Origin: Microbacterium sp. SMR1
GTDB taxonomy: Bacteria; Actinomycetota; Actinomycetes; Actinomycetales; Microbacteriaceae
Direction of reading: 5' to 3'
Length of the DNA stretch: 64,000 nt
Assembly: GCF_003289625.1 (NCBI RefSeq)
Contig: NZ_QMBN01000001.1
Coordinates: forward strand, 124,001 to 188,000
The notes under the pieces were generated by a model. That model was not told the origin of the DNA. It made no database searches and worked only from the letters and a program-made list of their open reading frames with translations. This document shows, in pieces, positions 8,026 through 43,499 of the stretch; positions within the stretch are counted from its first letter, which is position 1; each line of letters begins with the position of its first letter. The position numbers and the translations under genes are program-made.

Positions 8026-8620
8026 CCCGCTCGCGGCGCCGCGTGAGGGCGGCCGTGATCACATCGATCGCGGCGCCCAGCGCGAGCGCCGCGGCCACCG
8101 ACAGCAGCACGGCGAGCAGCGGAGCATCGGGCAGGAGCGCGCCGATCGCCGCGCCGATGACGCTCTGATAGGTGGCCCAGGACGTTGCAGCGACCCCGGC
8201 GATGGCGAGGAAGCGGACGGCCGATACTCGCGTGGCGCCCGCGGTGAGATTGACCGCGAGGCGCGCGAAGGGGATGAAGCGCGCGGTGAAGACGACCGTC
8301 GCGGTTCCCCGCTGCAGCCGAGCCCCCGCCCACGCGAACGCGCGTTGCACGCGCCGGTGCCGCATCCAACGCCACCGGCGGAGGCCGATCCGACGCCCCA
8401 CGGCGTAGCAGAGCGCATCCCCGCAGAACGCAGCGGATGCGGCGACACCGACGACGGCCGCCAGCGGGGGATCGCCGGTCGACGCGGCGAGCGCTCCCGC
8501 CGCCGTCACCGCGATCTCGCCGGGGACGACGACCAGGACGGAGTCGAGGAGGACGAGCGCGAAGACCGCGACGAGGAGCCAGGGGCCGCCGGACATCGCG
8601 GTCAGCAGGTCGTCGAGCAC
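7937..8620 (-). CDS. DedA family membrane protein
   Basis: 227 residues with the VTT/SNARE-associated domain. Visible landmarks are VPGEIAVTAAGALAAS near the N-terminus and the central FTARFIPFARLAVNLTAGAT, which corresponds to the conserved RFIPxxR motif of DedA proteins. Members are implicated in flipping of phospholipids or undecaprenyl-phosphate and in membrane homeostasis. The start is a GTG. The C-terminal about 35 residues are Arg-rich and run into the convergent FMN reductase gene (89-nt overlap), so this tail may be dispensable. Confidence 0.82.
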   Translation of the reverse strand: MLDDLLTAMSGGPWLLVAVFALVLLDSVLVVVPGEIAVTAAGALAASTGDPPLAAVVGVAASAAFCGDALCYAVGRRIGLRRWRWMRHRRVQRAFAWAGARLQRGTATVVFTARFIPFARLAVNLTAGATRVSAVRFLAIAGVAATSWATYQSVIGAAIGALLPDAPLLAVLLSVAAALALGAAIDVITAALTRRRERVTPPRDRRAGDRTTCPRPGTRRGRTDPRP

Positions 8621-8704
8621 GCGGCATCCCTATCAGCCGTGGATGAACGGAGCGGGAACGGCGACGGTCAGGCGTCCGCGAGGTGACCGAGCGCGGAGGA
8701 TCGT

Positions 8705-10759
8705 GTGAACAGTGCGCGATTCCGGCTGGTTCAGCAGACAGTGGCGCGCCGTCGGCGACACCCTGGTGTCGTGAGAGTCGCGGTGGTCACCGAGTCCTTC
8801 CTTCCCCACATGAACGGCGTGACCGGTTCGGTCCTGCGGGTGCTCGAGCATCTCGAGCATCGCGGGCACGAGGCCTTCGTCGTCGCGCCGGGCGCGGGGC
8901 GACGGCATCCGCTCGCCGTTCCGGGTCGAACGGTGCGGTCGATCCCGATGCCCCGGTATCCCGCCGTGCGCGTGGCGGCCCCGCCCGTGGTCTCGGTCGC
9001 GCGGGCGCTGCGAGAGTTCCGCCCAGACGTCGTGCACCTCGCATCGCCGTTCCTTCTCGGCTGGCAGGGGCTTCTCGCCGCCGAGGGCCTCGGGCTGCCG
9101 AGCGTCGCCGTCTATCAGACCGATGTCATCGCCTACACCGAGCGCTACGGCGTGCCGCACGCCACGGCGCTCACGGCTGCTCACGTGCGGCGGCTGCATC
9201 GCCGCGCGACGCTGACGCTCGCCCCCGCCGACGCGGCACGGCGGCAGCTGCAGGACCTCGGTGTCGATCGCGTCGCGATCTGGGGCCGCGGGGTCGACGG
9301 CATCCGCTTCGCGCCCCACCGCCGCGACGAGGCGTGGCGCGCGCGGGTCGTTCCGGAAACGGCCGACGGCGACGTCGTGGTCGGATATGTCGGGCGGCTC
9401 GCCCCCGAGAAGCAGATCGAGGATCTGGCGGCGCTCAGCTCGCTGCCCGGCGTGCGACTGGTCATCGTGGGCGACGGGCCCTCGCGGACGAGTCTGGAGA
9501 GCCTCTTGCCGGATGCCGTCTTCCTCGGCCATCTGCACGGGGACGCGCTCGCCACCGTGATGGCCAGCTTCGACGTTTTCGTGCACCCGGGCGAGAGCGA
9601 GACGTTCGGCCAGACCATCCAGGAGGCGCAGGCGAGCGGTGTACCGGTGGTCGCGACGGGTCGCGGCGGCCCGCTCGACCTGGTGCGCAGCAGTGTCGAC
9701 GGCTGGCTCTACCGGCCCGGCGATGCCGACGACCTCCGCCGCCGGGTCGCCGACCTGGCGGGGGACGCGGCGAAGCGGCGCGCGTTCGGCGCGGCGGCCC
9801 GGGAGGCTGTCGCCGGGCGCACCTGGGAGAGCCTCGGCGATGCCCTGCTCGGCCACTACGAGCGTGCGGGCGAGCTGCATGCGATCGACCGTGCCCGGCG
9901 GGCTCGCGTGTGGCCGCGCGCCGAGCTGCCCGCCGCGGGCGACGGACCTCCGCTGTGGCGGCGCTACGTCGCGCTGGGCGACTCGATCACCGAGGGGCTC
10001 TGCGACACGTCGCGCATGCCGGCGGGGATGCACCGGGGATGGGCCGATCGTCTCGCTCAGCTGCTCGCCTCGGCGGCGCCGCGAGCCGGTGGGGGAACCG
10101 GAGCCTTCCAGTACGCGAACCTCGCGGTGCGCAGCAAACGGGTACGGCACCTCGTCGACGAGCAGGTTCCGGCGTGCCTGGCGCTGCGGCCCGAACTCGT
10201 CTCGGTGCTCATCGGAGCCAACGACCTCGTGCAGGCCCGGGTCGACGTCGCGAGCGTCGCCGACGAGGTCGAGATCGCGGTCCGGCGGTTGCGGGAATCC
10301 GGGGCGGATGTGCTGCTCGCCACGGTGTTCCTTCCCGGGCGGGCCGCGGCGAGCATCTTCGCGCGGCGCTTCGCCGCCTACAACGCCCGGCTGCGAACGA
10401 TCGCGTCGAGGACGGGCGCCATCCTGGTCGACCTCGAGGCTGTGCCGGAACTCGCCCGCCTCGAGCTGTGGGCCGACGACAAGGTGCATCTGCGCTCGCG
10501 CGGGCATCGGCTCGTGGCCTATCGCGCGGCGGAAGCGCTCGGGGTGCCGCACGCCGAGGCGCTCGCCGAGCTCGACGAGGCCTTCCATCTCGACGACGAT
10601 CCCGTCGTGCCGGGAACGTGGCTGCGTCGCGATGCGCTCCCGTGGATGTGGCGGCGCCTGCGCGGCCGCACGGCCGGCGACGGCGTCGCTCCCAAGCTCC
10701 CCGCCTACGTGCGCATCGGCCCCACGGCCCCGCGCCGCTCGTCCCTCCCGCAGCAGTAG
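8705..10759 (+). CDS. Fusion of GT4 glycosyltransferase and SGNH/GDSL esterase
   Basis: 684 residues in one uninterrupted frame. Residues about 22-385 are a GT-B glycosyltransferase family 4 domain: RVAVVTESFLPHMNGVTGS at the start, VGYVGRLAPEKQIEDL after the linker and the E-x7-E region HPGESETFGQTIQEAQ. This resembles actinobacterial mannosyltransferases that act on lipid acceptors. From about residue 418 an SGNH hydrolase begins: block I ALGDSITEG, block III GAND and block V DDKVH with catalytic Asp and His. The C-terminal 60 residues look like a tail. The likely role is building and acyl-editing a glycolipid or polysaccharide. GGAGG at 8695-8699 supports GTG 8705; GTG 8771 is an alternative. 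Confidence 0.85.
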   Translation: MNSARFRLVQQTVARRRRHPGVVRVAVVTESFLPHMNGVTGSVLRVLEHLEHRGHEAFVVAPGAGRRHPLAVPGRTVRSIPMPRYPAVRVAAPPVVSVARALREFRPDVVHLASPFLLGWQGLLAAEGLGLPSVAVYQTDVIAYTERYGVPHATALTAAHVRRLHRRATLTLAPADAARRQLQDLGVDRVAIWGRGVDGIRFAPHRRDEAWRARVVPETADGDVVVGYVGRLAPEKQIEDLAALSSLPGVRLVIVGDGPSRTSLESLLPDAVFLGHLHGDALATVMASFDVFVHPGESETFGQTIQEAQASGVPVVATGRGGPLDLVRSSVDGWLYRPGDADDLRRRVADLAGDAAKRRAFGAAAREAVAGRTWESLGDALLGHYERAGELHAIDRARRARVWPRAELPAAGDGPPLWRRYVALGDSITEGLCDTSRMPAGMHRGWADRLAQLLASAAPRAGGGTGAFQYANLAVRSKRVRHLVDEQVPACLALRPELVSVLIGANDLVQARVDVASVADEVEIAVRRLRESGADVLLATVFLPGRAAASIFARRFAAYNARLRTIASRTGAILVDLEAVPELARLELWADDKVHLRSRGHRLVAYRAAEALGVPHAEALAELDEAFHLDDDPVVPGTWLRRDALPWMWRRLRGRTAGDGVAPKLPAYVRIGPTAPRRSSLPQQ

Positions 10760-10805
10760 CCCGCCCCGCCCCGCCACATCCCCGCCCGCCGAGAGCGACG
10801 CGCGG

Positions 10806-11486
10806 TCAGGGGCGCCAGCGGTACTCGGCCTCGGGCCGGCCGGGGGCCCCGTAGCGCTGGGCCCGTTCGGCGCGGCCGGCGTCGGCGAGGTGCTCGAGGT
10901 ATCGTCGCGCCGCGACGCGCGACATCCCGAGCGCCTCCGCAGCCTCGCGGGCGGACAGGGCTCCGGCCTCGCGGAGCCGGTTCGACACGCGCTCGAACGT
11001 CTCGGGAGAGAGCCCCTTGGGGATGGGAGCCGTGACCGGGCGCAGCGCCCCCAGCATCGCGTCGATCTCGGCCTGGGTCGCCGCGCCCGTGGTCTCGCTC
11101 GCGCGCTCGCGGTAGCGCGCGTACTGCGACATCCGTTCCTGGAAGTCGGCGAAGGTGAAGGGCTTCACGAGGTACTGCACCGCGCCGAGGCCGACGACCT
11201 GGCGCACCACGTCGGCATCCCGCACCGAGGTGATCGCGATGACGTCGACATCCCGGGCTCGCGCGCGCACATGGCGCAGGACGTCGAGTCCCGATCCGTC
11301 GGGCATCGTCATGTCCAGCAGCACGAGGTCGATCTCGTCCGTGGCCGGGCTGTCGAGGAGGGCTCGCAGGGCGGCACGTGCGCCGCTGCACTCGGCGACG
11401 ACCCGGAATCCGTCCAGCCGCTCGATGTAGTGGCGGTGGAGGTCGAGGGTGAGGGCTTCGTCGTCGACCAGCAGCACGCCGATCAT
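10806..11486 (-). CDS. CitB/DcuR-type response regulator
   Basis: 226 residues. The receiver domain (1-125) has acidic pair D8/D9, phospho-acceptor D58 in LVLLDMTMPDGSG, T86 and K108 in YLVKPF. The C-terminus (about 155-226) is a winged-helix-like HTH typical of the DcuR/CitB group and unlike OmpR or NarL. It overlaps the upstream sensor kinase by 4 nt and is transcribed with it. Given dctA next door, it probably activates C4-dicarboxylate or citrate uptake. Confidence 0.88.
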   Translation of the reverse strand: MIGVLLVDDEALTLDLHRHYIERLDGFRVVAECSGARAALRALLDSPATDEIDLVLLDMTMPDGSGLDVLRHVRARARDVDVIAITSVRDADVVRQVVGLGAVQYLVKPFTFADFQERMSQYARYRERASETTGAATQAEIDAMLGALRPVTAPIPKGLSPETFERVSNRLREAGALSAREAAEALGMSRVAARRYLEHLADAGRAERAQRYGAPGRPEAEYRWRP

Positions 11487-12745
11487 GTTTCCCTCCTCGG
11501 CAGGATGACGCGGAACGTCGTCGGGTCGTGATCGAGGGTGAGGCTACCGCCGGCGTCGTCGACGATCGCTGCGACGAGGGCGAGACCCACACCACGTCCT
11601 TCGGCGCCAGCGGGTTTCGTGGAGAAGCCGTGCTCGAAGATCCGGCGCCGCAGTTCCGGCGGCACGCCGGTTCCCGAGTCCGACACGGCGATCTCGAGCT
11701 CGTCCTCCTCGGTGCGCGTCATCCTGATCTCCACCCAGCGCGGTTCGGGCCCGCCGGCGGCGGCGTCGAGCGCATTGTCGATGAGATTACCGACGACCGA
11801 GACGGCATCGACCGGCGAGAGCACCGAGCGCGGCGCGTCGGGCTCGATGCGGGAGCGCCACCGGATGCCGCGTTCCTTGGCCTGCGAGGCCTTGCCGAGC
11901 AGCAGCGCTCCGACGGTCGGGTCGCCCTCGCGGCGGGCCGCGACCTCGTCGACCAGCACCTGGCTCTGCCGCGAGGTCTCGGCGAGGATCTCGATCGCCT
12001 CGGGGGTGCGACCCAGCTCGAGCAGGGCGATGGCGGTGTGCATGCGGTTGCCGTGCTCGTGGGTCTGCGCCCGCAGGGCTTCGCCGAGAGTGCGGAGCGA
12101 CTCGAACGACGAGACGGCGTCGCGGACGGCGCCGGCGGGCAGGTCTCCGGTGACCTGGCGCGTCGCCCGACGCGCGACGACGGCTCCGACGAGACCGGCC
12201 GCCAGGAGCGCGGCCGCGATGCCGACGACGACGAGGATGCGGGGCCCCAGAGTCGCCGCGATGCTGCCGATGGTCACGCCGACAGAGACCCACCCGACGA
12301 CGGCGCCGCCGCTCTCCACGGGCACGATGGTGCGGATCGAGGGGCCGAGGGTGCCCGTGAACTCCTCCGTCAACGCGCGTGACGTGGTGGGGATCGAACC
12401 CAGGTAGCGCTCGCCGATCCGCTCGGCGTCGCGGTGCGTGATCCGGATGCCGCTCGGGTCCATGATCGTGACGAAGTCGACGCGGGCATCGACGATCACC
12501 TGTTCGACCTGGGGCTGCAGCTCCGCGGATGCGAGGTCGCGGTCGCCGGCGGCGAGGAGGTCGGCGACCTGCGCCGAGTCGGCGACGGTCTGCGCGACGG
12601 CCTGGGTGACGCGCTCGGCCTCGGACCGCGCGGACCGCTGGCCGTCGGCGATGAGGATGCCGGCGATCGCCAGGGTGAGGAGCGCCACGGCCACCGCGAC
12701 CGCGACGAACACGAGCGAAGCGGCGCTGCGGGTGCGCGTTGTCAT
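11483..12745 (-). CDS. CitA/DcuS-type sensor histidine kinase
   Basis: About 420 residues from the preferred ATG at 12745. Order: helix 1 (about 10-34), an extracytoplasmic PAS-like sensor (about 35-170) containing ITHRDAERIGERYLG, which resembles the citrate/dicarboxylate contact motif of CitA and DcuS, helix 2 (about 172-195), a dimerisation stretch THEHGNRMH with the phosphorylated His, and an ATPase domain with NLIDNALDAA (N box), SDSGTGVP (G1) and GRGVGLALV (G2). It is paired with the response regulator through a 4-nt overlap and divergent from dctA, so it probably senses an external C4-dicarboxylate or citrate. Confidence 0.9.
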   Translation of the reverse strand: MTTRTRSAASLVFVAVAVAVALLTLAIAGILIADGQRSARSEAERVTQAVAQTVADSAQVADLLAAGDRDLASAELQPQVEQVIVDARVDFVTIMDPSGIRITHRDAERIGERYLGSIPTTSRALTEEFTGTLGPSIRTIVPVESGGAVVGWVSVGVTIGSIAATLGPRILVVVGIAAALLAAGLVGAVVARRATRQVTGDLPAGAVRDAVSSFESLRTLGEALRAQTHEHGNRMHTAIALLELGRTPEAIEILAETSRQSQVLVDEVAARREGDPTVGALLLGKASQAKERGIRWRSRIEPDAPRSVLSPVDAVSVVGNLIDNALDAAAGGPEPRWVEIRMTRTEEDELEIAVSDSGTGVPPELRRRIFEHGFSTKPAGAEGRGVGLALVAAIVDDAGGSLTLDHDPTTFRVILPRRET

Positions 12746-36814: not shown

Positions 36815-39391
36815 TCACCGCCGCGCGCTCATTTGCGAGGGCGGTGACGTCGGCCTCTTCTCGGGCCTCGCTTCGCCTGCGACGGCTGCGCCGAGTTCTC
36901 GTCGTGTCGAGGCGCCGACTTTCGCCCGCGCCTGGTAGATGTGCGACTCCACCGTCCGCACGGACACGAAGAGGACCTCGGCGATCCTGCGGTTCGACAG
37001 GCCGTCCGCGACCAGGTGAGCGATCTCGCGCTCGCGTGCTGTCAGCAGCGCGGACGATGCGGGCTGCGAAGCCTCCGCGGTGACGTCGCGCCCCTCGCGA
37101 AGAGAAAGAGCCGCGCGGAGTCGCCGCAGCACTCCGGCAGACAGCTCGACGGCGCGCTCACCGTCCGCAGCGGCTGACTCCGCATCGCGCATGAGTGCGT
37201 GCCCACAGGGGGCCTCGACACGCCCGATGATTCCGCGCACCACCTCCAGCGTCTGCTCCACGTGGGGGTGACCGAGGATCGCGAGACGATGCACGTCGCG
37301 GATCTGGAGCATGACGGCATCTGTGACGCTGCTGAGTGCCCAGGCATCTGCGGCGTGAGCATGCGCCTCGCTGATCCGCCCCTCCGCTGCGGCGACGACC
37401 GACGAGGTCGCCGCGAAGGAATGCCGCAGCATCCGGCTCGCGGCGGACGTCACGTCGACGGAGCCGAGCAACTGCCGGGCCTCCCGCGGATGATCGAACA
37501 GCGCCAGGGCGTACGCCGTCTCGAGCTCGATCATCGCGAGCGATTCGCTGCCGAGGTGAGGGGCCCGCTCAGCGGCCGCCCGCAGCTCACGTCGAGCGGC
37601 GAGAGCTCGGCCGTTTCTGACCTCCACCAGGACCGCCGCGAGTGATGCCGCCGCGAGCGCGGGGCCGCCCGCTCGCACGGCCATGTCGCGTTCGAAAGTC
37701 AGACGCTCGACCGTCTCCCGGTCATCCGTTCCCGCGACGGTGTGGCACGCGAGATCGTACGACCGCGCCGCGAGTCGATCGAGGGTGTCCTCGAAGCTGG
37801 CCCCTGAGGTGAACAGGCGCGTCGCGCGGTCCAGGGCCTCTCGCATCGCCGCGGTCTCGCCGAGATAGGCGCGCGCCATACCGGCGAGGAGCTCGACATC
37901 GACGCGGTCGCGGAAGAGAGACGTGGTCGGATCGCGACGGACGTGCTCGGTCAGGACCACGGCATCGCGCAGCCGCAGGTCGGCGACAGCCTCGCGTGAT
38001 CGCACGAGGGCGTCGTCTGCGACGATGTGGCGGACGTCCGCCGCCTGCGCGCCATCGGCAAGGCGTGCCGTCATGAGCGTCGGCGCCTGCCTTCGTTCGT
38101 TCTCGGCGAGGTCGAGCACCGGAAGCACCGCGCGCCCGCCTCCGAGGCTCGCCTCCGCGAGACGGTGCTCGAGCCTGATCGCGGGTGCGTCGACGTCGCT
38201 TGTGATCCAAGCTGCGTAAGCGACGGCGTCGGCGGCTTCGCCGACGCCGTTGGCTTCGCGCGCCGCGCTGAGGATCACCCGCTCGACGAACCCCAGGGAG
38301 ACGTCGTCGAGGTCGGAGGGACGCGCGACGGTACGCACCCAGCGGTCCGCCAGCAGCCGGGCGAGCGGGGCGCTCCACCAGCGCCCGTCGTCTCGGTGCA
38401 GCCGATCCAGCGCGTCGGAGATCACCGCCTCGGAGCGCTCCCTGCCGCACACACGCTCCGCGGCGCGCGCCAGCACTCGGTTGGCGCTGAGCCGATGGCT
38501 GGCGCTGCCGTCGTCGTATACCAATCCGCACGCGCGCAGCTCGTTCACGACGGCGGCGGGCACGAGTCGAGTCGCGTCGGCGCGCGAGATGCCGGGCGCT
38601 CGGTCGATGAGGATGAGCGCCCGCAGCTGGTCGTCGTCGAGATCTCGCACGTGGGCGTGGAGGACGGCTGCGAGTGAGCCGTGAGCCGCGCCGTCGGCGA
38701 TAGCGACGAGCGGGTCGCGACCTTCCGCCAGCGCGGCGAGACTGGCGTCGACGAGCGCCCGGAGCAGAAGCCGTGATCCGTCGGCGGACCAGAGGATCGT
38801 GGCACGCGCCACACTGTCGAACGGGTCGTCCGGCGCGAAGACGGAGAGCAGTCGGTCAGCGTCGCGGGCGGAGAGCCGGGGGAGCTCGATCCGATCGGCC
38901 GACCCCGACAGCCACAGGTCATGGATGACGTCGACGACCTCGTCCGTGCTGCTCGTGGGCAGGCGAGGCTCGGTCACCGCCATGAGCACGGTCGCTCGCC
39001 CCGAATGAACCGCTCGGAACAGCGCGGCGAGCGACACCGCGTCGAGCTCTTGCGCGTCGTCGACCACGACGATCGGGGGCGTTGTGGGCGAGCCGTCGCC
39101 GAGGAGCGTGAGGGCGCGGGGGTCGGACACCGCCTCAAGGACATTGGCATAGGTTCGACGGAGCACTGCTGAGGCTCGGACGACGATCGGATCTTCGCCC
39201 CGGTGCCGGAGCGCATCGACGACGCGCGACCGGAGGAAGCTCTTACCGGACCCGAGCGGCCCGCCCATGACGATCGACCGGCCGTCGATGAGCGCATCGG
39301 CGACGGCATCCGGCAGGGTCTCGTCTCCGACGACGTCGTGCCCCTCGTCATCTCCGCGTCGCGATTGCTCCGGGTTCCCCCGCCGTGCCAT
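36815..39391 (-). CDS. Large LuxR-family regulator with AAA ATPase domain (MalT/LAL-like)
   Basis: 858 residues. An N-terminal ATPase has Walker A GPLGSGKSF near residues 44-52 and Walker B PIVVVDDAQE. A long helical middle (about 250-780) is rich in Ala/Arg and TPR-like. The C-terminus (about 785-840) is a LuxR HTH: LTAREREIAHLVADGLSNRRIAEVLFVSVRTVESH. Such regulators sense a small ligand in the helical region and activate transcription when ATP-bound. AGGAG 8 nt before the ATG supports the start. It is divergent from the SipW/TasA-like operon across a 290-bp gap, which makes that operon its probable target. Confidence 0.85.
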   Translation of the reverse strand: MARRGNPEQSRRGDDEGHDVVGDETLPDAVADALIDGRSIVMGGPLGSGKSFLRSRVVDALRHRGEDPIVVRASAVLRRTYANVLEAVSDPRALTLLGDGSPTTPPIVVVDDAQELDAVSLAALFRAVHSGRATVLMAVTEPRLPTSSTDEVVDVIHDLWLSGSADRIELPRLSARDADRLLSVFAPDDPFDSVARATILWSADGSRLLLRALVDASLAALAEGRDPLVAIADGAAHGSLAAVLHAHVRDLDDDQLRALILIDRAPGISRADATRLVPAAVVNELRACGLVYDDGSASHRLSANRVLARAAERVCGRERSEAVISDALDRLHRDDGRWWSAPLARLLADRWVRTVARPSDLDDVSLGFVERVILSAAREANGVGEAADAVAYAAWITSDVDAPAIRLEHRLAEASLGGGRAVLPVLDLAENERRQAPTLMTARLADGAQAADVRHIVADDALVRSREAVADLRLRDAVVLTEHVRRDPTTSLFRDRVDVELLAGMARAYLGETAAMREALDRATRLFTSGASFEDTLDRLAARSYDLACHTVAGTDDRETVERLTFERDMAVRAGGPALAAASLAAVLVEVRNGRALAARRELRAAAERAPHLGSESLAMIELETAYALALFDHPREARQLLGSVDVTSAASRMLRHSFAATSSVVAAAEGRISEAHAHAADAWALSSVTDAVMLQIRDVHRLAILGHPHVEQTLEVVRGIIGRVEAPCGHALMRDAESAAADGERAVELSAGVLRRLRAALSLREGRDVTAEASQPASSALLTAREREIAHLVADGLSNRRIAEVLFVSVRTVESHIYQARAKVGASTRRELGAAVAGEARPEKRPTSPPSQMSARR

Positions 39392-39681
39392 GCCCAGCTC
39401 CTCTCCCCAGCGAGATCTGGCTTTCGGTCACAACCTACCCAGGCGATCCGAACGGGGCTATCGGTAGGCCCGATTCGGACTACTGAGGTTTCGCTGAGTG
39501 TCTACTGATTCGCGGACCTCAGGGCGCTTCGTCATCTGTCGCAGCGGGTGACGCTACGTATTTCACCACTGGGGCGTCGAGCGATGGCTGTCGCGCCCGC
39601 TGTCGGCGCCCCTAGCGTCGCCTCGAACCACACCGGATCCGGCTGACACGAGGCCGGGCGACACGAGGGGGAACTCCGAAC
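39392..39681. promoter_or_regulatory. 290-bp divergent control region, LuxR gene and SipW operon
   Basis: One of the longest gene-free stretches in the window. Arms 39448-39458 and 39468-39478 (CCGAACGGGGC against GCCCGATTCGG, 9 of 11 paired) form one palindrome; CCTACC/GGTAGG (39434-39439, 39463-39468) overlaps it. CTGAGGT (39483-39489) and ACCTCAG (39516-39522) form a second inverted pair. TAGCGT at 39613-39618 is a possible -10 for the operon. Confidence 0.45.
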
Positions 39682-40371
39682 ATGAACACTGCGACCACAC
39701 GGGGGACGACCCGCCGCAAGGTCTTCGCCATCGCCGCCGGCGGGGCAGCGCTGGGGCTGGGCGTCACCGCCACACTGGCTGCCTGGACCGACACCGAATG
39801 GGTCTTCGGCGGCAACGGCGCAGGCGGACCCGGCGTCGGCACGTCGACGTTCTCGGTCGAGCAGAACACCGTCGCTCCCTTCACCACGGCGGGGGACTGG
39901 GTGAACGAGCCCGACAACCCCGGCGGGGAGATCGTCTTCGGGCCGGATGCCCTCGATCTGACTCCGGGCGACACGGTGTACGCGGCCGTCGCGCTGCGCG
40001 CAGCACCGGACTCGATCGCCGGTGACGTCGAGCTTCAGGCCGCGGTGCCGGCCGCGGGGATCACCACGAACGACGCTGCGGGCCTGCTCTTCGACGCTCT
40101 GAACGTGCGCGTCGCCACTGACAGCGTCGCCTTCACCTGCGATGCGACCGCCTTCGCCGCGGGAGCGACGGCGACCCTCATCGCCGACGGCCCGCTCGCG
40201 ACGACCGGCGGCAGCGCCAGCCAGTCGCTCGTCGCAGAAGCCGGCAGCACCCAGGTGTACTGCTTCGAGATCTCGCTTCCCGATCCCCTGACGCTCGCAC
40301 CGGGCACGACGATCGATGACTACATGGGGCTGACCGTCGCTCCCGCGTGGGAGTTCCAGGCGGAGTCCTGA
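39682..40371 (+). CDS. SipW-dependent-type secreted protein (TasA/camelysin-like)
   Basis: 229 residues. The signal region RRKVFAIAAGGAALGLGVTA ends in LAAWTDTEW, the counterpart of the AYFSDTE motif of SipW substrates such as TasA and camelysin. The mature part is a predicted beta-rich domain with two Cys (FTCDAT, VYCFEI) and acidic character (DLTPGDTVYAAVAL is typical of the family's early strands). It probably forms or caps an extracellular fibre or surface layer. Strong SD GAGGGGGAA. The next gene encodes a SipW-type peptidase 5 nt downstream. Confidence 0.82.
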   Translation: MNTATTRGTTRRKVFAIAAGGAALGLGVTATLAAWTDTEWVFGGNGAGGPGVGTSTFSVEQNTVAPFTTAGDWVNEPDNPGGEIVFGPDALDLTPGDTVYAAVALRAAPDSIAGDVELQAAVPAAGITTNDAAGLLFDALNVRVATDSVAFTCDATAFAAGATATLIADGPLATTGGSASQSLVAEAGSTQVYCFEISLPDPLTLAPGTTIDDYMGLTVAPAWEFQAES

Positions 40372-40376
40372 TCCCG

Positions 40377-40982
40377 ATGCCGACGCACGTCACCACCGAC
40401 GACGCTGCGGCGGCACGGGACGGCGGCGACATGGCCGAGTCGGGGGGAGCCGAGCCCGTCGGTTCTCCCCGGCTCGGCCGGATCCGCGATGTCGTGATCA
40501 CGCTGATCGGCGTGATCGGCATCGTCACGATCGCGTGGCTTCTCGCCGCCTGGCTGTGGGGCCTCTCGATCGTCGTCTTCGTCACCGGCTCGATGTCGCC
40601 GGCCATGCCCGTCGGAACGGCCGCGATCTCACAGCTGACGGATGCCGCCGACCTGCGCATCGGCGACGTCGTCACGGTGCCGCGCCCCGACACCGGACAG
40701 CCGGTGACGCACCGGATCGTCGCCATCGACGAGGGCGCGACGGCACCGGGCGAACGCGAGCTGACGCTGCAGGGCGATGACAACGACTTCGCCGACAGTC
40801 AGACCTATGTCATCGATGAGGCCCCTCGTGTGCTCGTCAGTGTGCCGGTGCTCGGCTCGATCGTGCTGTGGGCGCAGACACCGGCCGTGATGATCGTGGC
40901 CAGCGTCGCCATCGCCCTGGCGATCGCCTGGGCTCTCTGGCCCACGCCGACGCGCGCCGTCCCCGACGCTCACCAGATGTGA
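40377..40982 (+). CDS. sipW: Signal peptidase I, SipW/ER type
   Basis: 201 residues, with an N-terminal tail (1-35), a helix (about 38-68), the S26B catalytic domain and a C-terminal helix (about 153-176). Catalytic S72 lies in FVTGSMSPAMPVG and the general base is H112 in VTHRIVAID, so this is the Ser-His (ER/archaeal/SipW) type and not the Ser-Lys LepB type; GDDND supplies the conserved Asp. It probably processes the two AAWxxxEW-type signal peptides encoded on either side. GGCGGAG about 10 nt upstream of ATG 40377. Confidence 0.85.
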   Translation: MPTHVTTDDAAAARDGGDMAESGGAEPVGSPRLGRIRDVVITLIGVIGIVTIAWLLAAWLWGLSIVVFVTGSMSPAMPVGTAAISQLTDAADLRIGDVVTVPRPDTGQPVTHRIVAIDEGATAPGERELTLQGDDNDFADSQTYVIDEAPRVLVSVPVLGSIVLWAQTPAVMIVASVAIALAIAWALWPTPTRAVPDAHQM

Positions 40983-40998
40983 ATAAGGAGAACCACCC

Positions 40999-41760
40999 AT
41001 GAAACGTGCATCGTTGCACGGTCATCGCGTCGCCGTCGTCTCGGCTGCCGCGGGCTCCGTCGCGCTCCTGATGACGGGCACGGTCCTGCTGGCGGGCGCC
41101 GCGAACGCGGCCCTCGTGGAGGTGCCCGAGACGGGTACCCCCGGACGCCTCGTGCTCGCCGCCGACCCCTATCCCGCGGAGTTCCGAGATTTGAGCCCTG
41201 GCGAGACGCGCGCGTGGCAGGTGCAGGCACGACTGGAGGATGCGTCGACCGCGACTCTCGCGCTCGAGCTGCGGAAAGACGGCGACCTCGTCGCGCACCC
41301 GCGGGGCCTCGAGATCGGGGTGCAGTCCTGTGCCGAGGAGTGGACGGGACTGCCCGACGCGCCGGTCTGCGCATCGGGTGCCGCACCCGTGACAGTGGCC
41401 TCTCCTACGGACGACTACCGGTTCTCCAGCCCGACCTTCGACCTGCCCGACCTCGCTGCGGCGGAGCCGGTGAGCCTTCTGGTCACGATCGGGGTCGAGG
41501 ACAGCGACGAAGCCCGCGCCGACACGACCCTGATGGGGCTGACCGGTGACGTCGGTCTTGTGTTGACGGCTGTCGCCATCGACGACACCGTCCCGCCGCA
41601 GCCGCAGCCCCCGGCGGCACCGGCCCCCGGCTCTGGTCTGCCCGGGCTTCCGCCGACCGGTGGCGACCTGTCCGCTCTGGCCGCCGTTCTGGCGCTCGCC
41701 GGAGGATTCCTCGCCGCGGGGCTCGCCCTGCGCCTGCACCGCCGGGAGGCCCGCGCATGA
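40999..41760 (+). CDS. LPPTG-anchored cell-wall protein
   Basis: 253 residues. A standard signal peptide (1-38, ending AGAANA) is followed by an extracellular beta-rich domain (about 40-195) with two Cys (VQSCAEE, PVCASG), a Pro-rich stalk (about 196-215) and a sortase signal: LPPTG at 217-221, a hydrophobic helix and the RLHRREARA charged tail. It has an ordinary signal peptide, unlike its two SipW-type neighbours, and may be the wall anchor of the fibre. No sortase gene lies in the window. The 3' end overlaps the next gene by 4 nt. Confidence 0.82.
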   Translation: MKRASLHGHRVAVVSAAAGSVALLMTGTVLLAGAANAALVEVPETGTPGRLVLAADPYPAEFRDLSPGETRAWQVQARLEDASTATLALELRKDGDLVAHPRGLEIGVQSCAEEWTGLPDAPVCASGAAPVTVASPTDDYRFSSPTFDLPDLAAAEPVSLLVTIGVEDSDEARADTTLMGLTGDVGLVLTAVAIDDTVPPQPQPPAAPAPGSGLPGLPPTGGDLSALAAVLALAGGFLAAGLALRLHRREARA

Positions 41761-43499
41761 AGACTCGAACCCGATCCGTAGTGGCTATCGCGGCGGTGGC
41801 CGTCGTCGGTGTCCCGATGACGGTCACGGCGACGACGGCCGCCTGGAACACGTCGGAGTGGGTACACGGAGAGGTCGGCACTTCCACGCTCGACTGCGCC
41901 GACGGCACAGGATTCGCCTCCGTCGCCTCCGGCCGCTTCTTGAGCGGTTCGCTCCTCGGGCTCGACCTGGATCCCCTCGCCGACCTCGAGCAGATGGTCC
42001 TCGCCCTCGACGGCGCGGGCGACGTCACGGTGTCACCGTCCAACGCGATCGACCTCGGCTCGTCACCGCCGGAATCGTACGTCTACGCCAACCCGTTCGA
42101 CGTGACGGCTCTCAGCGCGATCAACGTCGACCTGACCGGCTTCACCGTCGGTCTGCCGGGAGCGGCGCTGGGCGCCGTGAACCAGTATGCGAGGGTGACC
42201 GCCGACGGTTCGGTGGCAGGTGCGTCCGGGCTCGTCAACGACTCCGGGGCCGTGCTCGTGTCGGACACGACGCCCCCGGCATCCCTGCCCGCACGTGCGC
42301 GCGTCGGGCTGAGCGGCATCCTCCCGGCCGTCACCGGGATCGCCGACGCCAACCTCGAGGTCGGCGCGGTCGCGGCCAGCTCGCAGGTCGACGGGTGCGC
42401 GCTGCTGCGCGATCAGCTGTGGGGAGAGACGGCGCCCGCGAGCGCCGTCGTGCGGGACTACGGCATCGCCGGGCTCGGACTGCAGCTCGACGCCCCGGTC
42501 GTCCAGAGTCTCGTGAGCACGACCACCACCGCCGTGAACACGCTCGGCGGCGTGGTCGGTCAGCTGACCGGGCCGGGCGGGCTCATCGGCTCGTCCATCG
42601 GCGCCGGGGTCGACGCCGGGCTGCCCGGCATCCTCACCACCACGGTCGGTGGGAACGTTTCGATCACCGGACTCGACCTCCTGGGGTCGGTCGCCACGCT
42701 GCTGACCACGCCTCTCACCGACGGGGTCGTCACGATCGACCTGCAGGCGGGCTCGGCCGACGTCGACCTCGACGCCCTGCTGCCCTCCCTCAACAACGCT
42801 GCGCCGAACACGGAGATCGTCCTCAACGACGCCGTGCTGAACCCGATCGTGGATCGCGCCGGCGTCCTGCTCGACAACTGGTCGTCGCAGATCGTCGCTG
42901 CGCTCACCGCGGAGCTCCGTGAGGCGACGGTCACGGTCGCGCTCGAAGCCGTCGTGGCTGCGCCGGGGATCGGCATCCTGCCAGGGCTCACCGTCCTGAG
43001 CGCCGATATCGGCTTCGTCGGTCCGCTCGGAGCGCTGTTGGACGGCACCGCGGTGCTGACGATCGATGCCGAGGCCGCCGGCGCGGTCGGACCGATCAAC
43101 ACCCTGCTCAGCGCGCTGGGCCTGCCTACTGTCACGCAGCTTCTGACGACCGTCGGGGGACTGAGTTCGGGCCTGGTCTCGACCCTGGCGAACACGCTGA
43201 CGACCACGATCACCGGGGCGCTCACGACCCTCGGCGGCACGCTCGCGACGGCGGTCACCGCAGTCATCACGGCACTCGGTTCCGTGGTCGACGCTCTGCC
43301 GTCGGTGGTATCGCTGATGGTCAATGTCCAGCCCGATCAGCCGAACGCGCCGCCGGACGCGACATTCACGGCGGCGTCGGGCGAGTCGATCGCCGAGTAC
43401 AAGGTCGCTGCCCTGCGGCTCGGACTGGCGGACGGCCTCGGCGGTATCGCGGCCACGACGTTCGCCACGGCGTCGGCGGGTCCGGTCACTGCGCCCTGA
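41757..43499 (+). CDS. Choice-of-anchor G-like secreted protein with SipW-type signal
   Basis: 580 residues. The signal VVAIAAVAVVGVPMTVTA ends in TTAAWNTSEW, parallel to the first gene of the operon, so it is a second predicted SipW substrate. The mature protein is very rich in Leu, Val, Thr, Ala and Gly with few Lys, in long amphipathic repeats (for example GLVSTLANTLTTTITGALTT), typical of the actinobacterial choice-of-anchor G group of large surface proteins. It has no LPxTG of its own and may be retained by the LPPTG protein. ATG overlaps the upstream stop. Confidence 0.75.
   Translation: MKTRTRSVVAIAAVAVVGVPMTVTATTAAWNTSEWVHGEVGTSTLDCADGTGFASVASGRFLSGSLLGLDLDPLADLEQMVLALDGAGDVTVSPSNAIDLGSSPPESYVYANPFDVTALSAINVDLTGFTVGLPGAALGAVNQYARVTADGSVAGASGLVNDSGAVLVSDTTPPASLPARARVGLSGILPAVTGIADANLEVGAVAASSQVDGCALLRDQLWGETAPASAVVRDYGIAGLGLQLDAPVVQSLVSTTTTAVNTLGGVVGQLTGPGGLIGSSIGAGVDAGLPGILTTTVGGNVSITGLDLLGSVATLLTTPLTDGVVTIDLQAGSADVDLDALLPSLNNAAPNTEIVLNDAVLNPIVDRAGVLLDNWSSQIVAALTAELREATVTVALEAVVAAPGIGILPGLTVLSADIGFVGPLGALLDGTAVLTIDAEAAGAVGPINTLLSALGLPTVTQLLTTVGGLSSGLVSTLANTLTTTITGALTTLGGTLATAVTAVITALGSVVDALPSVVSLMVNVQPDQPNAPPDATFTAASGESIAEYKVAALRLGLADGLGGIAATTFATASAGPVTAP

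Follow-up and report, generated by a model that had tools for sequence, protein, structure and literature searches.

We analysed a 64,000-nucleotide stretch of the genome of Microbacterium sp. SMR1 (hereafter the window, with its first letter as position 1), in which four adjacent genes encode a TasA-like secreted protein (P1), a SipW-type signal peptidase (SipW), a protein with a sortase-type sorting signal (P3) and a large choice-of-anchor-G protein (P5). An earlier, sequence-only reading had described four tightly linked genes with a LuxR-type regulator gene divergent from them, and all five genes were found where it had placed them:

36815-39391, minus strand: LuxR-family (LAL-type) regulator, 858 residues; Walker A GPLGSGKS at residue 44, GerE helix-turn-helix at 782-833.
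39392-39681, no strand: divergent intergenic region of 290 bases between the LuxR and P1 genes, presumed promoter site.
39682-40371, plus strand: P1, TasA-like proposed fibre subunit with a SipW-type signal (TIGR04088; AlphaFold model; best match in the PDB 8aur).
39784-39870, plus strand: P1 N-terminal segment WTDTEWVFGG...GTSTFSVEQNT, proposed donor strand, common to P5 by profile comparison.
40377-40982, plus strand: SipW-type Ser/His signal peptidase (TIGR02228; S72/H112), 201 residues from ATG 40377; GTG 40347 also possible.
40999-41760, plus strand: P3, with a TasA-like domain, an AxA signal end and an LPPTG sorting-type signal, proposed wall base (alignment and profile comparison).
41647-41661, plus strand: LPPTG motif of P3, at residue 217.
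41757-43499, plus strand: P5, choice-of-anchor-G protein (NF033766) with a SipW-type N-terminus, no C-terminal anchor found and a TULIP-like predicted core.
41844-41909, plus strand: P5 N-terminal segment WNTSEWVHGEVGTSTLDC..., proposed donor strand, of low confidence in the P5 model (predicted local distance difference test, pLDDT, about 51 and 67).

The genes are closely packed: P1 ends at 40371, next to the start of SipW at 40377 (or 40347), a clear ribosome-binding-site-like stretch precedes the P3 start at 40999, and the P5 start overlaps the P3 end. In 16 loci, intergene gaps range from -134 to +164 bases, with start codons guessed. A sigma-70 scan of 39392-39681 found no site. The genome measures 3.26 Mb and is close to that of Microbacterium sp. 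AG238, whose P1 is 95% identical.

To describe the cassette beyond this genome we used 80 named loci obtained by a P1 profile and motif search, a set in which the P1 motif is therefore conserved by construction. The order P1-SipW-P3-P5 on one strand is kept in 74 of the 80 loci, all actinobacterial by record titles, and the carriers include Microbacterium, Curtobacterium, Leucobacter, Herbiconiux, Clavibacter, Cellulomonas, Sanguibacter, Jonesia, Arthrobacter, Citricoccus, Nakamurella and Pseudokineococcus. Many of these genera live in soil or with plants, settings where surface attachment matters. Three of the six exceptions end at a contig end; in the other three, all from Cellulomonas, a single open frame covers SipW and a P3-like stretch, which looks like a fusion (L141:9641-11215, L147:9587-11035 and L148:1062-2768; the P3 part was scored by profile in L141 and recognised by eye in L147 and L148, and an internal P3 start is possible). 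Within the 74, the P5 of L150 is a 20-bit fragment, and that of L101 (Curtobacterium pusillum DE0005) is split over two frames. The split P5, together with the P1 of L045 (genome G033), which is reduced to a C-terminal remnant, could mean that the cassette is decaying in individual strains.

A second route, independent of the P1 motif, started from the choice-of-anchor-G gene, which is present in 56 of 150 genomes of the family. We examined 58 of the 76 choice-of-anchor-G matches listed in these genomes: 19 adjoin SipW, and 18 of the 19 loci have all four genes in order (L045 among them, with the C-terminal part of P1 only). Gene order in relatives, which the sequence-only reading had named as a point to check, is thus conserved by either route. 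Kin of P1 were found in 35 of the 150 family genomes (18 of them with full-length matches, E at most 8.2e-36), in 44 of 297 genomes of an order sample, and in at least 6 of 396 genomes of a phylum-wide sample in which eight candidates per genome were scored, a count on which no claim of rarity rests. Many genomes in the family and order searches also have two weaker P1 matches side by side, of the kind seen in the second SipW cluster described below. A fixed genomic site for the cassette was considered and rejected: recA-recX and miaB-miaA flank only five of the 80 loci (L075-L078 and L080), all from Microbacterium. In Compostimonas (L091), Gryllotalpicola (L105) and a Cryobacterium metagenome-assembled genome (L128), the cassette has dnaX-, recR- and aspartate-kinase-like neighbours (identified by eye), a setting common to the three and different from the recX-miaB site in the window.

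The peptidase passes TIGR02228, the model for the archaeal/SipW type (56.6 bits; cut-off, 51.85), and scores 33.1 bits with the Bacillus SipW equivalog NF046067, below its cut-off of 190. In SipW-type peptidases the catalytic pair is Ser/His instead of Ser/Lys; the two residues proposed earlier, S72 and H112 counted from ATG 40377 (S82 and H122 in the longer reading), are present and are invariant in 18 aligned SipWs. The shared AAWxxxEW signal end was likewise correctly described, as AAWTDTEW in P1 and AAWNTSEW in P5. The SipW-signal model TIGR04088 matches P1 (25.6 bits; cut-off, 19) and 16 of 18 P1s at E 0.01; it does not match the window P5, whose SipW-type signal is assigned from the motif. 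By analogy with TasA, mature P1 likely starts at A34-W35; its second residue would then be tryptophan, as in P5, with an acidic residue four positions further on. This W, D and E are invariant in an alignment of 18 P1s not chosen by the P1 motif (L045, partial, and L072, divergent, were omitted). A second SipW cluster occurs in the same genome (L035:8047-10427; C2, about 505046-507426): it encodes two TasA-like proteins passing TIGR04088, a SipW-type peptidase that narrowly misses the cut-off of TIGR02228 and a protein of 156 residues that contains DAAWVDAE, and no match to P3 or P5 was found in it.

According to the available part of one report (PMC10269814), TasA has phenylalanine at the second mature position of a site cut by SipW, and E. 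coli LepB poorly cleaves sites with an aromatic residue there. The third secreted protein had been credited with an ordinary signal. This fits the window P3, whose signal ends in ANA (an AxA end is invariant in 18 aligned P3s), but in an alignment of 74 of 77 P3s (L079, at a contig end, L141 and L154 were omitted) the second mature residue, located from the alignment, is aromatic in 31. Because LepB handles such sites poorly, SipW may cut some P3s too.

The AlphaFold (AF2) model of P1 has a pLDDT of 95.4 and a predicted template modelling score (pTM) of 0.88. When it was compared with the whole PDB by Foldseek, the B. subtilis TasA fibre 8aur ranked first (E 1.7e-3, probability 1.00, TM 0.51) and an archaeal bundling pilus, 7ueg, second. 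VIA also placed 8aur first, at Z 8.7 with a root mean square deviation (rmsd) of 3.8 over 154 residues, aligned from model residue 1; the next row had Z 7.3, 1.4 lower, and monomeric TasA (5of2) had Z 6.7, aligned from residue 30. The structure test for a jelly roll suggested by the sequence-only reading therefore came out positive, with the fibre form of TasA on top in both comparisons. The label "TasA/camelysin-like" survives in its first half, the fold; the camelysin half falls away, given that Pfam Peptidase_M73 (PF12389) matches neither P1 nor any other protein of the genome. Lying outside Peptidase_M73 by sequence, P1 would work like TasA and be a distant relative of it at most.

The regulator combines an N-terminal Walker A, a C-terminal LuxR helix-turn-helix (GerE, 48.2 bits) and a length of 858 residues, and LAL regulators are defined by just these two elements in about 900 residues. 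The earlier term "MalT/LAL-like" is thus right as to the LAL-type architecture but not as to MalT, whose equivalog NF003420 scores 20.5 bits against a cut-off of 537, over the helix-turn-helix part only. A related LuxR gene is divergent from the cassette in 20 of the 80 loci by position (and in one more, L083, in a longer frame); among 34 loci it is the most frequent recurrent neighbour, yet it is found in only eight. We therefore reject the idea that the system always includes LuxR, and "LuxR-controlled" is not supported as a general feature; because it is divergent in just these 20 loci, the gene is an optional neighbour of the cassette. The closest Microbacterium loci, L075-L077, have the most similar regulators (924 to 1226 bits), and the others scored reach at most 329 bits, which suggests that the regulator changes fast beside a stable cassette. 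These counts bear on a non-structural explanation, in which P1 acts as a protease of the camelysin type or in signalling and is specifically regulated by the LuxR gene. The divergent LAL-type gene in the window is what this explanation has in its favour. On the other hand, P1 has no HExxH motif (which was looked for) and no M73 match, and by the position rule the regulator is not seen beside 60 of the 80 cassettes; we regard it as very improbable.

P3 was described earlier as an LPPTG wall protein, and it does have the LPPTG motif at residue 217, followed by a hydrophobic stretch and a basic tail. L217 and G221 are invariant in 18 aligned P3s; in the alignment of 74, the G of the sorting motif is invariant and L and T are each conserved in at least 90%. 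The NCBIfam model LPXTG_anchor (TIGR01167) does not match the window P3 and matches 1 of 18 P3s (E 0.013), so the wall-protein label was drawn from the motif, the hydrophobic stretch and the basic tail. A class E sortase and a class C sortase, one of each, are encoded in the genome, the latter next to a SpaH-type pilin; the sorting motifs of P3 relatives read L-P/A-x-T-G, which we assume would suit class E. The class C sortase belongs to a separate sortase-assembled pilus locus (L031; C3, about 8517-11891) with a SpaH/EbpB-type LPXTG pilin.

The three secreted proteins share modules pairwise. The profiles of P1 and P3 match (probability 88, E 2.8e-6) over mature residues 48-195 of P1, which leaves its N-terminal segment outside; in a control, the rerun scored 42.8, against a maximum of 17.0 in 60 column shuffles, and reversed profiles reached 15.2 and 15.6. 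The match between P1 and P5 is confined to residues 1-29 (E 5.9e-5; 41.7 versus at most 20.3 in 60 shuffles), and comparison of P3 with P5 detected nothing in common (E 0.26, probability 0.2). Searched by sequence against solved structures, the P3 profile returned three chance-level rows and the P5 profile five. The proline box of TasA is, we assume, its L-K-P-G-D stretch; a matching proline is present in all 81 P1s and in 60 of the 74 P3s, and L-x-P-G-D/E occurs within the first 120 residues of one of 71 P5s. Conversely, W-x-x-x-E opens 70 of the 71 mature P5s and is found near the start of none of the 74 P3s. This P5 set holds 71 of 76 sequences retrieved and has the leading W by construction; L098, L100, L102 and L115 (motif hit misplaced) and L150 (fragment) were omitted, and L099 and L101 have no motif at the expected place, although GAWSDEEW can be recognised by eye in L099. 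In TasA the proline box contacts the incoming strand, according to the available part of PMC10151520. Because of these matches and counts, P1 looks like a strand plus a socket, P3 like a socket plus a wall anchor and P5 like a strand plus a head.

One way to combine such parts is a non-fibrous surface complex in which P5 is tethered to wall-bound P3, and P1 serves in one or a few subunits as linker or chaperone. Two observations fit this arrangement: the cassette retains P3 and P5 almost as regularly as P1, and TapA of Bacillus starts filaments yet is absent from their body (available part of PMC10151520). P1, however, has the strand as well as the domain, as a polymerising subunit would, and resembles the fibre form of TasA more than the monomer; we consider such a complex improbable.

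Earlier identification of a large choice-of-anchor-G-like protein was correct: P5 passes NF033766 with 236.4 bits (cut-off, 45). Cassette P5s have a SipW-type N-terminus in 18 of 19 cases and a C-terminal anchor, by a strict rule, in none of the 19 and none of the 71 of the wider set. Stand-alone choice-of-anchor-G proteins, in contrast, have a strict anchor in 26 of 39 cases and a SipW-type motif in one, which by eye is not at the signal end. The 13 that miss the strict rule comprise, by eye, two with L-x-x-T-G lacking the basic pair, five with a hydrophobic stretch and basic tail (these seven adding to the anchored ones), three with no anchor and three with abnormal frame ends. In a tree of 75 rows, the cassette and stand-alone kinds need one change (branch support 74/0), and 41 of the 42 cassette rows form one clade (support 96/96). 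P5 thus seems to have exchanged a C-terminal anchor of its own for the plug-in strand of the fibre. Since the tree needs one change, the exchange is best seen as a single old event, kept since, and Fisher tests on the counts make the contrast look stronger than it is. The pattern nevertheless argues that the N-terminal strand of P5 now does the holding. The same genome encodes a second, stand-alone choice-of-anchor-G protein (L036; C4:359462-360286; frame of 1379 residues) with an ordinary signal and a C-terminal LAATG anchor.

This pattern is relevant to a further alternative, a plain TasA-like matrix, in which P1 forms fibres as in Bacillus and P3 and P5 are co-made, independent surface proteins outside the fibre. 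SipW loci of B. cereus and C. perfringens make filaments without a sortase and carry further genes, according to the available parts of PMC13082335 and PMC7395162, and the P1-P5 match could be the SipW recognition motif alone. Against this stand the C-terminal anchor in 0 of 71 cassette P5s versus 26 of 39 stand-alone kin, the presence of the P1 domain in P3, and the gene order and shared SipW-P3 frames that tie the genes together. We think this alternative unlikely, though it deserves to be kept in mind.

The P5 model has a pLDDT of 86.6, and its first 20 residues are poorly defined and stand apart from the fold. Foldseek gave no usable match (best E 0.34). In VIA, the ten best rows cover mature residues about 217-484 (rmsd 5.1 to 9.9; best Z 9.0, with rmsd 6.2 over 146 residues); the rows include SPLUNC1 (Z 9.0), LBP (7.7), BPIFA1, salivary BSP30, latherin, CETP and an SMP domain, and we take the ten best all to be TULIP/BPI-type proteins. 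None of 19 P5s matches any Pfam family at E 0.1, TULIP families included. A TULIP-like (BPI-type) core, proposed on fold and from VIA alone, is therefore likely but unproven, and binding of lipids or surfaces by it would be a guess.

We favour, with a little more confidence than doubt, the explanation that the cassette builds a TasA-like donor-strand fibre anchored in the cell wall: P1 would form the polymer, P3 would attach it to the wall, and P5 would join it through the strand at its N-terminus. By analogy with TasA, SipW would cut P1 and P5 one residue before the tryptophan, a kind of site that ordinary signal peptidase cleaves poorly, and free the N-terminal strand, and the strand of one P1 subunit would insert into the jelly roll of the next. 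P3, which has a TasA-like domain and a sortase-type signal and lacks a strand of the P1/P5 type, would most likely accept the last P1 strand and fix the fibre to the wall by its sorting signal, perhaps through the class E sortase. P5, which has the strand and in which neither a TasA-like domain nor a C-terminal anchor was found, would plug into P1 (or P3) and sit at the opposite end as functional head. The most economical order would be the P5 strand into P1, P1 strand into P1 repeatedly, and the last P1 strand into wall-bound P3. Gene order, shared domains, the fold match of P1, signal types and the anchor pattern are observations; we infer polymerisation, the assignment of ends, the sortase class and a role in adhesion or matrix formation, and the assembly steps are taken from TasA (available parts of PMC9674648 and PMC10151520). 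The earlier proposal of a wall-anchored actinobacterial SipW/TasA surface system thus stands as to the surface operon, the wall-protein component and the conserved order, and lacks support as to general LuxR control.

A bolder version, which we put forward tentatively and think somewhat doubtful as a whole, is a three-part self-assembling fibre with the strand as common connector: P1 as strand plus socket, P3 as wall-bound socket, and P5 as a lipid- or surface-binding TULIP head whose ancestor swapped its C-terminal anchor for the strand. Such a fibre would correspond, in a Gram-positive setting, to chaperone-usher pili and would join SipW processing, donor-strand linkage and sortase anchoring.

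Several observations weigh against the wall-anchored fibre. No match in the PDB to the P1 model reaches a Foldseek E of 0.001, TM to TasA is 0.51, the P1 profile has no match among solved structures by sequence, and Peptidase_M73 does not match P1. The P1 motif is conserved by construction in the motif-selected loci, although W, D and E remain invariant in the 18 unselected P1s. Part of the P1-P5 match may be merely the motif recognised by the peptidase. The median number of residues before the proline box is 29 in P3 versus 59 in P1, and 29 is about the number in TasA; P3 could therefore carry a short strand of its own. The notion of P3 as a proven strand-less protein is weakened accordingly: it lacks W-x-x-x-E, but its N-terminus is presumably no shorter than that of TasA, and 31 of 74 P3s have the aromatic second residue. 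Three of the 39 stand-alone choice-of-anchor-G proteins (L062, L069 and L070) are also without an anchor by eye, and the change of anchor was probably about one event, not many. Finally, the Bacillus donor protein TapA is probably located close to the cell (available parts of PMC9674648 and PMC10151520), so the direction of the fibre could be reversed, and P5 would then be the cell-proximal part, as TapA is.

Donor-strand fibres of the TasA type are understood from work in Bacillus, and their tie to the cell is less clear. If the wall-anchored fibre is real, a widespread actinobacterial cassette would provide a parts list with a single gene for each function (cutting, polymer, wall base and head), each part bearing a strand or a socket, and the attachment and direction of such fibres would become directly testable. 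Choice-of-anchor-G surface proteins, a large class without explanation so far, would also gain a function, and a protein would be seen to have traded a covalent wall anchor for a plug-in strand. In the open-licence literature, judged mostly by titles, we found no description of a P1-SipW-P3-P5 cassette, and nothing on choice-of-anchor G or on SipW in Microbacteriaceae.

Among related systems, stand-alone choice-of-anchor-G proteins share the NF033766 domain with P5. A SipW gene is absent from the 4 kb around them, however, their signal end lacks a SipW-type motif, and 26 of the 39 have the strict C-terminal anchor. Sortase-assembled pili of the SpaH type, whose subunits are linked by a class C sortase, are also wall-anchored surface fibres; P1, however, has no sorting signal, and such a locus lies elsewhere in this genome. 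The closest parallel is tapA-sipW-tasA of B. subtilis, where a SipW-type peptidase likewise adjoins its substrates, where TasA has the same type of jelly roll, an aromatic residue shortly behind the cleavage site and a conserved proline box, and where there is a strand-giving partner (TapA there, P5 as proposed here). In the Microbacterium cassette, by contrast, no TapA was found, a sortase-type wall protein carries a TasA-like domain, a large choice-of-anchor-G protein is the proposed strand-only partner, P1 falls outside Peptidase_M73, and some loci have a LAL-type regulator in place of SinR. The bundling pilus 7ueg of Pyrobaculum calidifontis, the second Foldseek match to P1, is related to TasA filaments (available part of PMC10151520) but archaeal. 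The B. cereus sipW-tasA, capP and calY genes also provide SipW-linked TasA-type filament proteins and an extra assembly protein; they are described as sortase-independent, and the available part of the report (PMC13082335) mentions neither an LPxTG subunit nor a choice-of-anchor-G protein. Clostridium perfringens sipW-bsaABCRSD shows SipW-dependent secretion of a small filament-forming protein, BsaA, which has no LPXTG motif and does not need the neighbouring sortase gene, according to the available part of PMC7395162. Because the SipW filaments of both species are described as sortase-independent, a sortase-type base would be a new element compared with known SipW filament systems.

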